Assembly: GCA_947853665.1 (NCBI GenBank)
Contig: CANTXF010000016.1
Span: 62,001 to 126,000, forward strand
Reading direction: 5' to 3'
DNA length: 64,000 bases
From: an uncultured Deferribacterales bacterium
Lineage (GTDB): Bacteria; Chrysiogenota; Deferribacteres; Deferribacterales; Mucispirillaceae
Shown here: piece after piece, positions 54,398-60,435 of the stretch
Position numbering within the stretch: the first letter of the stretch is position 1
Layout: every line of letters begins with the position of its first letter
Translations under genes and position numbers: made by a program
Notes under the pieces: model-generated
Told to the model about the DNA's origin: nothing
Database searches by the model: none
Seen by the model: the letters and a program-made list of their open reading frames with translations, nothing else

Positions 54398-55786
54398 CTA
54401 TTTTATTATATCCCTCGTATCCATGTCCCTGGCAAAAATGACTTTTGTCATAACAAGCTGGGCGGGAGAACAGGCGGAAAGAGCGTCAGTAAACATATCC
54501 AGCGTCCTTGCCTTTTCATACCCTCCGAAGCCCGCCCCTTCGAGAAGGCCGCCTATGCCCGCCTCCTCTATGCACTTAACGGGAAGCTCCTCTATACTGA
54601 AGTATTCCGCTATATCAAGATCCGTAACGATAGTTTCGCCGATGCTCGAATATATAAAGGCAAGGCCCGAGCCCTCAGAACGCATTACGCCTTCGTCGTC
54701 ATAGCGCGGTTTTTCCGCTTTATGGACGAACCGAATACTTAAAACCCCGCTGGGAATCTTATCCGCAGGAAAGAAAAACCCTGCTGTTTCGTCGGGATTG
54801 CTCATAAGTCCCGCAATATCTTCCCGCGACCAGCTTTTAAGAACCAGCTCTTTGCCGGAAGGGCTTTTTCTGACTATTTCTACTTTTTCAAGAGAGAAAG
54901 AAGGCAGGTATTCGTTTATAAAGCCTTCCCCCTCCTCAGGCAGAAAAGGTTTCAGAGGGTCTTTCGCACCTATATACGCCGAAGCTATCTTTCCTGAAAA
55001 AACGAACGGTCTGGCAAGCTCGGCGGCGGTTACGCTTCCCGAAGAAAGGCTGTAGTCGCGCCCTGTCTTTTTATATTTTTCCATGGCGGAAAAATAACCC
55101 AGTATCCTTTCCTTTCCGCCGGATTCGAATAAATATTCCATATCGGTAAATTTAGGCACACCAAGAAAGGCGGATATCCAGTCCGTGGAGTAAAACGAAC
55201 TTAACGCATGCGGATAAACGGCGTATTTAAGCCTGTATTCCGAAAGAGCGTCCTTTCCCTCCTTCTCTTCGGGAGCTTCGAGAGAAAGCAGCTTTAAAGA
55301 GGGATATATGCGGTTTCTTAAAAATACGTCTCTTCTTGAAACAAAAATACCAACCTTCTTCACACCCTCGACGGCAAAGGTAACGGGCTCCGTTTTATCG
55401 AAATCCATAGTTTTAAAGCCGTCCGCCCCTTTTGAGGAATACGCCGCAAGAGCGCTTTTTTCCAAACTTCTGCCGTCAAGCTCCAGCTGCCTGAAAAGAT
55501 TCATAAGGTAATCGGAAGACGTTCCCGGAAGAGCCTGGTAAGTTATGGAGGTAAAATAAGAAACATAATCGGCGTTTTCGTTTCCAGAGCAGAAAAATTC
55601 CCCCGACGGACCTCGGGCCGCTTTATTGAAATCGCACTCGAAAACGACGTGCTTAAGCGGTTTTATTTTCTCAAGGTCGTCATAATTTCTGACGTTTTCA
55701 TCCACACTGCCGCTTATTTTGGAGCCGAAAACCGAACACCCGCATATCAGAAGCGCAGCGGCGGACGTAATAAATATTTTTCTCAT
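54398..55786 (-). CDS. Lipoprotein of unknown function, 462 residues
   Basis: An N-terminal signal peptide (MRKIFITSAAALLICGC) ends in a probable lipobox with Cys17. The mature part is mostly mixed alpha/beta with no repeat, transmembrane or catalytic motif that I recognise. A C-terminal segment has IGETIVTDLDIAEYFSIEELP. It lies upstream of ntrY (101-bp gap) and diverges from the acetyltransferase-like operon across 120 bp. It could be an outer-membrane-anchored accessory protein for either neighbour. Function not assigned. Confidence 0.7.
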   Translation of the reverse strand: MRKIFITSAAALLICGCSVFGSKISGSVDENVRNYDDLEKIKPLKHVVFECDFNKAARGPSGEFFCSGNENADYVSYFTSITYQALPGTSSDYLMNLFRQLELDGRSLEKSALAAYSSKGADGFKTMDFDKTEPVTFAVEGVKKVGIFVSRRDVFLRNRIYPSLKLLSLEAPEEKEGKDALSEYRLKYAVYPHALSSFYSTDWISAFLGVPKFTDMEYLFESGGKERILGYFSAMEKYKKTGRDYSLSSGSVTAAELARPFVFSGKIASAYIGAKDPLKPFLPEEGEGFINEYLPSFSLEKVEIVRKSPSGKELVLKSWSREDIAGLMSNPDETAGFFFPADKIPSGVLSIRFVHKAEKPRYDDEGVMRSEGSGLAFIYSSIGETIVTDLDIAEYFSIEELPVKCIEEAGIGGLLEGAGFGGYEKARTLDMFTDALSACSPAQLVMTKVIFARDMDTRDIIK

Positions 55787-55906: not shown

Positions 55907-56680
55907 ATGGCTGATTTTGAACAGAAAACGGACGAATACGGCACGACAATACTGAAGCTTGTCAGAGTAAAAGAAATAGGCGGAGGAAGCGTAAGGCTTT
56001 ACGGCCATATAATGCTTTCCATAAAGCATTATAAAGAATCGGACACGGAAATGATGATAGTGCGCTTTATATCGCTGGCCGGAAACACCATGGCAAGAGC
56101 GAATCTGAACAATGTAGCCGCTTCCGAAAAGCTGTCTCTTAATAAATTTACCGCTACCGTAAACCACAGAACCAATTCCGTCGATTTCGGCCCGGTTCAG
56201 GGCATATATATGGAGGAAACCCTCCGCGGCAGAGGGATAGGCTCATTTGGTCTTAACGAGCTGATCTCCTGGCTTAAATCCAATTTTGAAGAATATACGA
56301 TAAATCCTTTCGAATTTATATCCCCGGACAACGCATCCCAGGAAGACATCGACAGGCGCAACAAGTTTCTTGAAAATTTCGGCTTTACTCTTGGCTTTAC
56401 GGACGTTACGCAGCGCAGCGGCACCATGAAAGCTAAAAAGGTTTCCATACTTAAGGAGCACTATAATTCCGAAAAGGTGGAAGAGCTGGACATCGAGCAG
56501 TTTGTGTTCGGCCTGATAAACGATAAGGCTTCCCTGGAAAAATCTTACAACGATCTGAAAGCGGAATACGCCGCCAGAGGCGAGGAACTGCTGGCGGGTA
56601 TACCTAAGTCGGAAATAGTAAAATATACCATAATAGGCTGCGTTCTTGTGCTTATAATCCTTACCCTGCTTTTGATATAA
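55907..56680 (+). CDS. GNAT-like domain protein with C-terminal membrane anchor
   Basis: 257 residues. A GNAT-like core (about 30-180) carries the acetyl-CoA-type loop MEETLRGRGIGSFGLNELI (RGxGIG), preceded by a beta-rich region. A helical segment (about 185-235) then leads to one hydrophobic helix at 237-257 (KYTIIGCVLVLIILTLLLI), so the enzyme domain is probably held at the membrane facing the cytoplasm. Its TAA overlaps the ATG of the following dehydratase-type gene (TAATG). No family name or substrate is recognised. The acetyltransferase activity is inferred from the loop only. Confidence 0.6.
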   Translation: MADFEQKTDEYGTTILKLVRVKEIGGGSVRLYGHIMLSIKHYKESDTEMMIVRFISLAGNTMARANLNNVAASEKLSLNKFTATVNHRTNSVDFGPVQGIYMEETLRGRGIGSFGLNELISWLKSNFEEYTINPFEFISPDNASQEDIDRRNKFLENFGFTLGFTDVTQRSGTMKAKKVSILKEHYNSEKVEELDIEQFVFGLINDKASLEKSYNDLKAEYAARGEELLAGIPKSEIVKYTIIGCVLVLIILTLLLI

Positions 56681-57675
56681 TGAAAAAAATCGGCTTTACC
56701 ACCACCATACCGGTAGAAATCGTCCTGTCTGCCGGGCATGTGCCGGTAGATCTCAACAATATATTCGTGGCGGGAAGCGACCCTTCGGCCCTTATAGAAG
56801 AAGCCCATACGGACGGCCTTCCGCGTAACTGCTGTTCTTGGATAAAGGGGCTTTATACCGTAGGAGCAAAACTTAAAGCAGTTGATGAAATAATTGCCGT
56901 AAGCAACGGAGATTGCAGTAATACTCACGCCCTTACCGAGCTTTTCGGCGAAGCGGGCATACCGGTTCATACATTCTCCTATCCATATAACGAGCCCTAT
57001 CCTTCCAAAGCCCTTAAAACACAGATGGAGCTTCTTGCAGGCAAGCTGGGCACCACCCTTAAAGCAGCCTCCCAATACTGCGAAAAGACCGATAAAATCC
57101 GCGATAAACTAAAAATGCTGGACAGGCTTACTTATGAAGGGGAAGTATCCGGCTTTGAAAATCACCTGTGGCTGGTATCATCCTCCGATTTTAACGGAGA
57201 CGCCGGTAAATTTTTGAAGGATGTGGACGACGTAATAGCAAAAGCCTCTCTCAGAGAAAAAAACGATAAAAGCATAAGGCTCGGATATATAGGCGTGCCT
57301 CCGATAATACCCGCCATATACGATTTTATAGAAAGCAAAAACTGCAAGGTCGTGTTCAACGAAGTACAGAGGCAGTTTTCCATCCCGTCGGAAAATGCCG
57401 ATTATGTGGAAAGGTATATAGAATATACATATCCCTACGGCGTAATGGGGAGAATAAACGATATAGCAGAGCGTATAAGAGAACGGCGGATAGACGGGAT
57501 AATACATTATGTTCAGTCTTTCTGCTTCCGGCAGATACAGGATACGCTGATAAAAAAATATCTGCCCGTACCCGTCCTTACCATAGAGGGGGATATGCCG
57601 GGAAATCTCGACGGAAGGACGAAAATAAGAATAGATTCGTTTATAGAAATGCTTGAGAGCAAAAAGAAAAAATGA
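56680..57675 (+). CDS. 2-hydroxyacyl-CoA dehydratase / double-cubane cluster protein-type subunit
   Basis: 331 residues of the HgdB/FldC/DCCP superfamily, with start IGFTTTIPVEIVLSAGHVPVDL and Cys at 51, 52, 79, 134, 222 and 282, the first sets typical of Fe-S ligation. True 2-hydroxyacyl-CoA dehydratases use two different subunits. Here only one is encoded next to its activator, as for double-cubane cluster proteins (and E. coli YjiM/YjiL), which carry out ATP-driven reductions of small substrates. Overlaps both neighbours. Substrate unknown. Confidence 0.8.
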   Translation: MKKIGFTTTIPVEIVLSAGHVPVDLNNIFVAGSDPSALIEEAHTDGLPRNCCSWIKGLYTVGAKLKAVDEIIAVSNGDCSNTHALTELFGEAGIPVHTFSYPYNEPYPSKALKTQMELLAGKLGTTLKAASQYCEKTDKIRDKLKMLDRLTYEGEVSGFENHLWLVSSSDFNGDAGKFLKDVDDVIAKASLREKNDKSIRLGYIGVPPIIPAIYDFIESKNCKVVFNEVQRQFSIPSENADYVERYIEYTYPYGVMGRINDIAERIRERRIDGIIHYVQSFCFRQIQDTLIKKYLPVPVLTIEGDMPGNLDGRTKIRIDSFIEMLESKKKK

Positions 57676-58427
57676 ATACGACGAAACAGGTCGGCATAGA
57701 TCTGGGCAGCAGGTTCGTAAAAATGGCGCTGTTCGGCGGAGAAACCACGCAATTTCTGCGATATGATACCGTTGATTTTTATAAACGGTACATAATCCGC
57801 CGGCCGGACGGAATAAGCATAGATACGGAGCGGCTGGGCATTCCGGAAGACTGCGCCGTAACGGCCACCGGATACGGGCGCAATCTGATGTCTTTTGGAA
57901 ACGCGTCCGTAATATCCGAAATCAAAGCCCATTTCAGAGGGGCGCTGAGAGCTTCCGGAAAAACCGATTTCATACTCGTGGATATAGGCGGTCAGGACAG
58001 TAAGGTAATATGGGCGCGCGACGGATATATAGAGGATTTTGTAATGAACGACAAATGCGCGGCAAGCACCGGCCGGTTTGCCGAAAACGCCTCCTCCGCT
58101 CTCGGTTTCACACTGGAGGAGCTGGGAAACATGAAAGAAAACCCGGCCGACTTATCCACGACCTGCGCGGTATTCTGCGAAAGCGAAATCATAAGTCTCA
58201 TGGCCTCCGGAACGGAGCCGGAACGCATAGGCGCCGGGATTAACATGTCAATAGCCAAGCGCCTGGCTCCGCTTGTAAAATCTTATTCCGCGCCCTACAT
58301 TTTCGCTTCCGGCGGAGCTGCCGAAAACGAAGCTATGCTGTGGTTTCTTTCCAGGCTGGTAGACAAGGAGATACATCCCGTTCCGGAACCGCAGTTCAAC
58401 GGCGCTCTGGGATGCCTGAACCTTTAA
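57672..58427 (+). CDS. ATP-dependent activator of 2-hydroxyacyl-CoA dehydratase type (BadF/BcrAD/HgdC family)
   Basis: The 251-residue ASKHA ATPase has phosphate-1 GIDLGSRFVKM, the DIGGQDSKVI loop, NDKCAASTGRF with Cys129 and TCAVFCESEI with Cys165/Cys169. In the dimer these would hold a single [4Fe-4S] cluster. Such proteins use ATP hydrolysis to push one low-potential electron onto their partner. It overlaps the dehydratase-type gene by four bases (ATGA), marking a functional pair. Confidence 0.9.
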   Translation: MNTTKQVGIDLGSRFVKMALFGGETTQFLRYDTVDFYKRYIIRRPDGISIDTERLGIPEDCAVTATGYGRNLMSFGNASVISEIKAHFRGALRASGKTDFILVDIGGQDSKVIWARDGYIEDFVMNDKCAASTGRFAENASSALGFTLEELGNMKENPADLSTTCAVFCESEIISLMASGTEPERIGAGINMSIAKRLAPLVKSYSAPYIFASGGAAENEAMLWFLSRLVDKEIHPVPEPQFNGALGCLNL

Positions 58428-58449: not shown

Positions 58450-60435
58450 ATGGATATACCCATTCTTAAAGACATAACCGTAATAATAGCGGTGGCCACA
58501 ATATCCCTTCTTATATGCTCGAGGCTTAAAGTCCCCGGCATACTCGGATACCTTATAACTGGGCTACTTGTGGGGCCTAACGGACTGCGCCTCGTATCGG
58601 AAACTGAAAACGTAAACACTATGGCCGATATAGGCGTCGTGCTGCTGCTTTTCACGATAGGTCTTGAATTTTCTCTCAGACAGCTTGTGGCTCTGAAACG
58701 GTCCGCAATAGGGGGAGGCATCCTTCAGGTAACGCTTACGACGGCTATTTTTGCCGCCGCGTGCGCAATATTCGGGTTTCATACCGGGCAGGCTGTTTTT
58801 TACGGGCTTATACTCACCCTGTCCAGCACGGCAATAGTTCTGAAACTGCTTATGGAAAGGGGCGAGGTTGAGGCGCCCTTCGGAAGGATAACGACAAGCG
58901 TTCTTATATTCCAGGATATCGCCGTTATTCCCATAATGCTGATAATCCCGATGCTCGTACCCGGCGGAAGCGCGTCTTTGGCGGATATAGGCATAAGCCT
59001 TGGAAAAGCTCTGGCTGTGGTAATTATCCTTTTCGCCGCAGCAAGATTCATGGTTCCGCGCCTTCTGCTGCAGGTAACAAAAACGAGAAGCCGGGAGCTT
59101 TTTCTTTTCTCCATAGTGCTTATATGCATGATAGTGGCGTTTATTACCAACAAAGCTGGTCTTTCTCTGGCTTTAGGAGCGTTTCTCGCCGGTATGGTCG
59201 TCAGCGAAACGGGATACGGATATCAGGCCCTCGGCAACGTGGTGCCGTTTAAGGACGTTTTTACCGGTTTTTTCTTTGTTTCGGTTGGCATGCTTATAAA
59301 TGTGGAAATTATCATCTCAAACCCTATAATCGTAATTTTAGCCGCCCTTTTCATTATAATCGTCAAAACCTCGGTGGCAGGCATGGTAATAAACCTGCTT
59401 GGATATCCCTTAAATACATCGCTGCGCACCGGTCTATCTCTGGCGCAGGTGGGCGAATTTTCTTTCATACTGGCGGCTACCGGAAAAACCATAGGTATAA
59501 TTGACGGAGAGGAGCAGTCCACATTTATAGCCATATCGGTAATTACCATGGCGGCTACACCTTTTCTGATACAGTATTCCAGCAAAATATCGGAAGCGGC
59601 CGGAAAACTCCCCCTTCCCGCGTCTGTCATAAAGGGCTATTTCCACACGGCGTCAAACAATATAAAGCCGGTGAAGGACCACATGATAATAGTGGGATAC
59701 GGCCTTGCGGGAAAAAACCTGGCAAAGGCGGCGGAAAACGCGGGAATAAGCTATAATATAATAGAAATGAATCCCCAGACGGTGAGAAACGAATCAGCTA
59801 AGGGAACCCCGATATTTTACGGAGACGCCTCTCAGGAAGAAGTGCTGGAACACGCAAGAGTAAAGGACGCGAGAGCCGTGGTAGTGTCTGGAGCCGATAA
59901 CGCCACCACCAAAAACATAGTGGAAACGGTACACAGAATCAACCCGTCTATAGCCGTTGTGGCGAGAACCCGCTTCGTACTGAACGCCGCGCCCCTGAAA
60001 GAACTTGGAGCCACCGACGTAATCGTGGAGGAGGTAGAGTCTTCGGTCGCCCTGCTTTCCTGCGTTCTGAAACACTACTACATACCGGCGGAAGACATAG
60101 ACAAGCAGGAAGCGGAAATAAGGCAGATAGAGCCTTCCGCCGTAAAACGCAGATCGAGGGACAGAGCCGCGTCCCTGGGGATAAAAGGCGTGGCGGTGGA
60201 AACCGTTACCGTACCCGTAGGCTCTCCCGTTTCGGGTAAAACGCTGCGGGATCTCGACGTAAGATACAGATACAACGTAAACGTAATAGCCATGAGAACG
60301 GGAGGAAATTTAAAAGTATCTCCCGGTTCGGGAGAACGCTTAAACGACAGAGACGAACTGCTCGTAACCGGACGGCAGGCCGACATAAATATATTCGCCG
60401 GAATTTTTGTACAAAGTACCAAACAAAAGGCCTAA
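58450..60435 (+). CDS. Monovalent cation:proton antiporter-2 family protein, KefB/C-like
   Basis: 661 residues. About 12 membrane helices (1-390) have the CPA2 motifs VVLLLFTIGLEF and LSSTAIVLKLL. A TrkA-N (RCK) domain (about 410-530) begins IIVGYGLAGKNLAKAAENAG and a TrkA-C domain (about 570-655) follows. These mediate K+ or Na+/H+ exchange under ligand control. It starts 22 bp after the activator gene, so readthrough from that operon is possible. Ion and ligand not deducible. Confidence 0.88.
   Translation: MDIPILKDITVIIAVATISLLICSRLKVPGILGYLITGLLVGPNGLRLVSETENVNTMADIGVVLLLFTIGLEFSLRQLVALKRSAIGGGILQVTLTTAIFAAACAIFGFHTGQAVFYGLILTLSSTAIVLKLLMERGEVEAPFGRITTSVLIFQDIAVIPIMLIIPMLVPGGSASLADIGISLGKALAVVIILFAAARFMVPRLLLQVTKTRSRELFLFSIVLICMIVAFITNKAGLSLALGAFLAGMVVSETGYGYQALGNVVPFKDVFTGFFFVSVGMLINVEIIISNPIIVILAALFIIIVKTSVAGMVINLLGYPLNTSLRTGLSLAQVGEFSFILAATGKTIGIIDGEEQSTFIAISVITMAATPFLIQYSSKISEAAGKLPLPASVIKGYFHTASNNIKPVKDHMIIVGYGLAGKNLAKAAENAGISYNIIEMNPQTVRNESAKGTPIFYGDASQEEVLEHARVKDARAVVVSGADNATTKNIVETVHRINPSIAVVARTRFVLNAAPLKELGATDVIVEEVESSVALLSCVLKHYYIPAEDIDKQEAEIRQIEPSAVKRRSRDRAASLGIKGVAVETVTVPVGSPVSGKTLRDLDVRYRYNVNVIAMRTGGNLKVSPGSGERLNDRDELLVTGRQADINIFAGIFVQSTKQKA

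Follow-up and report, generated by a model that had tools for sequence, protein, structure and literature searches.

What does a single-gene Fe-S enzyme of the BCR/HAD/DCCP superfamily (DCCP, double-cubane cluster protein) do beside its activase, and what part is played by the protein encoded directly upstream of the two? The ATP-driven Fe-S enzymes of this superfamily carry out some of the lowest-potential chemistry in biology. It is unclear what its single-gene members do, hence the interest of the subfamily described here; the biological function of the DCCPs was stated to be unknown (PMC11971306).

We analyzed a locus within a 64,000-nucleotide stretch of DNA (the window) from an uncultured Deferribacterales bacterium with a 2.43 Mb genome (97% complete). 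The closest named relatives are Mucispirillum, with 68-70% identity in the Fe-S protein, a 2-hydroxyacyl-CoA dehydratase D-component-like protein (HGD-D; gene 2). The codes f1, f2, etc. designate families of the phylum, with f1 being the window's own family. We read the locus as an ATP-activated enzyme core, made of the Fe-S protein and the activase (gene 3), combined with a lineage-specific tail-anchored third component, the product of gene 1. We would give this reading a probability of about 0.5.

Gene arrangement

A preliminary description of this DNA reported three genes overlapping by one and four bases, and the ORF coordinates agree with it (Table 1). The antiporter gene starts 22 bases 3' of the activase gene and has the same position in Mucispirillum; therefore, the transcript may include more than three genes, with the antiporter as a possible fourth gene in this lineage only. 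Scans for promoters and terminators produced matches at chance level only. The divergent lipoprotein-like gene on the other side of the locus has a Mucispirillum counterpart 33-35% identical to it, and its product had no significant match in Pfam or NCBIfam.

Table 1. Features of the locus (positions in the window)
Feature	Position	Strand	Length
Divergent lipoprotein-like gene	54398-55786	-	462 aa
Gene 1, acetyltransferase-like (suggestive only) protein with C-terminal membrane helix	55907-56680	+	257 aa
Gene 1 stop / gene 2 start, 1-base overlap (TAATG)	56680	+	
Gene 2, PF06050 Fe-S protein, HGD-D-like, single gene	56680-57675	+	331 aa
Gene 2 stop / gene 3 start, 4-base overlap (ATGA)	57672-57675	+	
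Gene 3, acyl-CoA dehydratase activase (archerase, ASKHA-type ATPase)	57672-58427	+	251 aa
KefB/C-like CPA2 cation:proton antiporter with TrkA_N and TrkA_C	58450-60435	+	

The Fe-S protein and its cysteines

The gene 2 protein scored 118.5 bits against PF06050 (cut-off 28.4), and its predicted structure (pLDDT 93.6) has the fold of the superfamily. In a Foldseek search of the PDB the best match was DCCP (6eno, TMq 0.82, E 6e-16); HadC (3o3n_B) followed with TMq 0.77, and the remaining BCR/HAD subunits were also among the best folds. A profile built from gene 2 relatives gave the same order, with DCCP at the top (E 1e-15), then HadC (E 7.6e-9) and BzdN. NCBIfam has no curated name for the subfamily; in 56 of 57 members the closest match among named families was the double-cubane model NF040772, which gene 2 itself matched with 52.4 bits, far below the cut-off of 350.

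We observed that only three cysteines, C52, C79 and C282, are invariant in the subfamily. This was found for 96 sequences from more than 10 phyla (Deferribacterota, Bacillota, Nitrospirota, Thermodesulfobacteriota, Cloacimonadota, Sumerlaeota, WOR-3, Armatimonadota, Zixibacteria, Acidobacteriota and others). The three residues align with C114, C144 and C374 of DCCP, and the loops bearing C309 and C341/C343 of DCCP are deleted in 57/57 aligned relatives of gene 2 (the DCCP numbers were counted from the PDB alignment and may be off by one). An equivalent of the N-terminal cysteine, C36 in BzdN, was judged solely from the lack of an invariant cysteine before C52. In BzdN six cysteines are published as ligands of the [8Fe-9S] cluster, and in BzdO three hold the catalytic [4Fe-4S] cluster (PMC11971306); gene 2 does not have six per subunit. 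By similarity alone gene 2 would be labeled a double-cubane protein; the three-cysteine pattern corrects this label.

The loss of a sub-cluster was argued to be the origin of the dehydratase and reductase active sites (PMC11971306). From this argument and the three-cysteine pattern of the sequences we infer that gene 2 would be a single-gene enzyme in which the second cubane is already lost. We find it better described as a reductase or dehydratase that is encoded by one gene, has three invariant cysteines and is served by an ATP-driven activase. A literature search found no named single-subunit, three-cysteine member of the superfamily. For a two-subunit 2-hydroxyacyl-CoA dehydratase a second homologous subunit would have to be encoded, and at the level of the family the preliminary description was right that it is missing: we found a single PF06050 protein in the 97%-complete genome.

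The activase

The same description also called the pair a superfamily Fe-S protein and its ATP-driven activator, and this held, with PF06050, TIGR00241 and PF01869 all matched above their cut-offs. The activase scored 164.6 bits against TIGR00241 (cut-off 125.4) and 127 bits against PF01869 (cut-off 31), and it matched the DCCP reductase 7yyl_E with an E-value of 2e-32. Characteristic of an archerase, it has cysteines C129 (in NDKCAA) and C165 (in TTCAVF), which, from what is known of the family, we take to be the cluster ligands, two per monomer. A dedicated activase encoded adjacent to the Fe-S protein, as seen here from the TIGR00241 match and the four-base overlap, is a feature of DCCP systems as well.

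The same genome also encodes a fused activase-activase-DUF2229 protein of ~1410 aa, located ~23-27 kb beyond the window (L178:697-4962). It is a separate system, a second relative of the activase/Fe-S pair that is built as one chain, and not a PF06050 subunit, and could in principle share electrons with the pair.

Spread of the enzyme pair

Across more than 10 phyla the identity of gene 2 subfamily members was 43-70%. The activase gene adjoins the HGD-D gene in about half of the best 80 loci (41 with a detectable match), and all 27 tested genomes of other phyla with a short HGD-D had at least one activase. The pair of the Fe-S protein and the activase is old and widespread.

The other neighbors of HGD-D vary. 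For example, RtcB is found in several Deferribacterales, a conserved run TsaD-KsgA-HGD-D-DUF4911-TldD in Syntrophorhabdaceae(-like) genomes (L123, L125, L128, L136, L146, L159, L161), and gene series that include MurI, RNase PH and RdgB in Syntrophomonadaceae; RtcB and DUF4911 were named by Pfam, and several other names were read by eye from the sequences. These neighbors are housekeeping genes and do not point to a clear substrate. Identity of 43-70% over such a range of phyla, in a subfamily that has no curated name, suggests that its members perform a basic shared reaction.

Sequence and predicted fold of the gene 1 protein

The gene 1 protein has a beta-rich N-terminal part, an RGRGIG loop, a long helix (~196-225) and a membrane helix (~234-256). 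The loop fits R-x-x-G-x-G and, with it, the R/Q-x-x-G-x-G/A pattern of acetyl-CoA loops; the motif and the helix after it are kept in most of the homologs linked to HGD-D, and alanine replaces the first R/Q in one sub-clade (L012, L013, L015). A stretch F-L-E-x-F-G-F downstream of the loop resembles the C-terminal half of the N-acetyltransferases (GNATs). In an alignment of 23 sequences the invariant residues were G110, F154, F158 and E193. The last 19-21 residues have a mean hydropathy of 2.6, and the terminal membrane helix is kept in all complete members of the family.

The score of gene 1 against PF00583 was 16.4 bits, below the cut-off of 20.7. Sub-threshold Acetyltransf_1 matches were seen in 13 of the 23 members (best E 0.0036); there were also weak matches to several GNAT families, none of which reached a curated cut-off. 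The helices alpha1-alpha2 of GNATs were not evident in the model (pLDDT 79, pTM 0.66). A Foldseek search of the PDB with this model returned no GNAT and no match with E below 0.1, and a PDB sequence search gave nothing useful. Because the fold search found no GNAT, the assignment is provisional, and the acetyltransferase-like character of gene 1 is suggestive only. The GNAT-type loop and membrane helix named earlier stood as the RGRGIG motif and the hydrophobic C-terminus; the structure search did not confirm a GNAT fold.

The dN/dS values of gene 1 among its relatives were 0.025-0.10, similar to those of HGD-D (0.02-0.13); gene 1 is under purifying selection. These values, together with the finding of the genes side by side again in other genomes, argue that the three-gene arrangement is not due to chance.

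Distribution of gene 1 and its linkage to the Fe-S protein

We searched for gene 1 in 51 genomes of the phylum and compared the results with the PF06050 matches; adjacency was weighed by a local comparison of flanking genes. Gene 1 was located directly 5' of HGD-D in 16/16 testable genomes, 13/13 in f1 and 3/3 in f7. Contig ends made adjacency not testable in two f1 genomes (G035, G047) and in one f7 genome (G034, with both genes at contig ends). The gap between the two genes was mostly less than ~40 bases, with ~190 and ~510 bases in two f1 genomes (L013 and L015, respectively). In two f7 genomes gene 1 adjoins HGD-D and the activase does not (L109, L017), and beyond the three genes no neighbors are common to f1 and f7. 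The identity of gene 1 proteins across these two families was 34-40%.

The linked copies of gene 1 form one clade (SH-aLRT 96). In the HGD-D tree, a single clade of f1 and f7 was not rejected (p-AU 0.308); therefore, the linkage in both families may represent one event.

Homologs of gene 1 unlinked to HGD-D were found in f6, and others in f9, in genomes that have no HGD-D. We also found relatives sharing the layout of a GNAT-like half and a terminal membrane helix, annotated as hypothetical, on plasmids of Burkholderia and Pseudomonas (L166:2662-3498, L167:2710-3498); their loop is degraded. Given these unlinked, HGD-D-free and plasmid homologs, the wider gene 1 family also exists independently of HGD-D. 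The unlinked f6 copies (L022, L024, L027, L030, L031) lie beside a gene for an unassigned protein of ~190 aa, near a PilZ/YcgR-like gene. A phage search with a plasmid relative gave no outcome.

The preliminary description had asked whether gene 1 is a lineage orphan or recurs with the pair in distant genomes. Its homologs and conserved adjacency in other genomes led us to reject the first possibility. The expected synteny was observed in two families of one order, but in none of the 35 genomes of other phyla with a short HGD-D, in which neither gene 1 nor the ~99-aa protein described below was detected by profiles that do match in Deferribacterota. A universal partnership of gene 1 with HGD-D was rejected as well, for HGD-D occurs without gene 1 in most lineages. 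Gene 1 joins the operon in two Deferribacterales families only.

A second occupant of the upstream slot

In families f2-f6 the position just 5' of HGD-D is taken by an unrelated protein of ~99 aa, often encoded after RtcB (L066-L080, e.g., L074:6791-7090). This protein belongs to no Pfam family and has the invariant motifs W-M, N-R-x-G-L-H-x-E and R-Y-I. It was present in 24/24 genomes of f2-f6 and in 0/20 of f1 and f7. As a dedicated partner of HGD-D it is a weakened candidate, since it is found without an adjoining HGD-D in G018 and in G049, where it comes right after RtcB. Since its link with HGD-D is not strict, we call the ~99-aa gene and gene 1 occupants of one slot. At locus L180 the ~99-aa gene follows RtcB without HGD-D.

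Stop codons were observed within the HGD-D, activase or ~99-aa genes in two genomes (G020:C9:140368-142384, G027:C40:37905-38635). Together with G018, which has no HGD-D, they hint that some f6 genomes have lost the system; assembly errors are the other possibility.

Alternative readings of the locus

One alternative is that gene 2 is a DCCP with an [8Fe-9S] cluster which reduces small molecules, as the double-cubane type proposed in the preliminary description would have it, and that gene 1 is its partner, either for the substrate or at the membrane. DCCP is the closest fold, NF040772 is the nearest family for nearly all members, and a single gene with an adjacent activase is what such a system would have. 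However, the sub-cut-off NF040772 score, the three invariant cysteines and the deleted loops speak against it; we rejected the double-cubane assignment and consider this alternative very improbable. For gene 1, a catalytically active N-acetyltransferase acting on the Fe-S protein, the activase or their substrate would account for the loop kept in most of the linked clade and for the weak matches to several GNAT families. The sub-cut-off scores of all these matches, the fold search, the alpha1-alpha2 helices not evident in the model and the alanine in L012, L013 and L015 make such a sequence-derived activity unlikely, though less so than the double cubane.

Gene 1 could also be merely co-transcribed, i.e., it would have landed 5' of HGD-D in an ancestor of these Deferribacterales families and been kept for regulatory or translational coupling, with neither physical nor metabolic cooperation between the products. 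The occurrence of each gene without the other, the possibly single historical event and the wide gaps in L013 and L015 are consistent with this scenario. On the other hand, adjacency was kept in 16/16 testable genomes, at 34-40% identity, while other neighbors moved, as did the activase in some places. We consider mere co-transcription somewhat unlikely, yet the most serious of the three alternatives.

Proposed mechanism

Under the preferred reading, that of an activated enzyme core with a tail-anchored third component, a low-potential donor would reduce the [4Fe-4S] cluster of the activase, and ATP hydrolysis by the activase would drive electrons onto the Fe-S protein; this path from the donor through the activase is backed by knowledge of the family (PMC11574389, PMC11971306). 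The Fe-S protein probably forms a homodimer in which each subunit has one [4Fe-4S] cluster held by three cysteines, and it would perform a one-electron reduction or a radical dehydration of a small substrate, probably a thioester of the acyl-CoA type. The gene 1 protein, made together with the enzyme, may contact it and most likely holds it at the inner face of the cytoplasmic membrane; it may also bind or present the acyl substrate through its GNAT-like half, of the acyl-CoA-binding type.

A broader and more tentative reading, to which we give clearly less than an even chance, is that the whole subfamily of single-gene, three-cysteine proteins with ATP-driven activases, widespread among anaerobes, does low-potential radical chemistry, and that the Deferribacterales add exchangeable partners in the slot, either gene 1 or the ~99-aa protein. 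If this is true, the slot would hold, in Mucispirillum-type lineages, a GNAT-like protein that tethers the enzyme to the membrane and binds acyl-CoA, and elsewhere the ~99-aa protein. A membrane-anchored partner in Mucispirillum-type bacteria would offer a handle on both the location of the enzyme and its substrate.

Comparison with known systems

The gene 1 protein resembles the GNATs (PF00583, PF13508) in its R-x-x-G-x-G loop and helix and in the F-L-E-x-F-G-F helix; it differs from them by scores below every curated cut-off, by having no fold match and by an added C-terminal membrane anchor. With the class I benzoyl-CoA reductases BzdNO and MbdON the gene 2 protein shares the superfamily fold. 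These enzymes are heterodimers with six and three cluster cysteines (PMC11971306), whereas gene 2 is one gene with three, and no aromatic-degradation genes were seen at the locus. The DCCP and DCCP reductase of Carboxydothermus hydrogenoformans (6ENO, 7YYL) have the same fold and the same set of one Fe-S gene and one activase gene, but the Fe-S protein of the window is ~90 residues shorter and has no cysteine-bearing loops for the second cubane. The 2-hydroxyacyl-CoA dehydratases HadBC/HadI and HgdAB/HgdC have two subunit genes in place of one; the window locus has no CoA-transferase or substrate genes, in agreement with the preliminary description. What the window pair has in common with these two systems is the three-cysteine cluster pattern and an activator of the archerase type.
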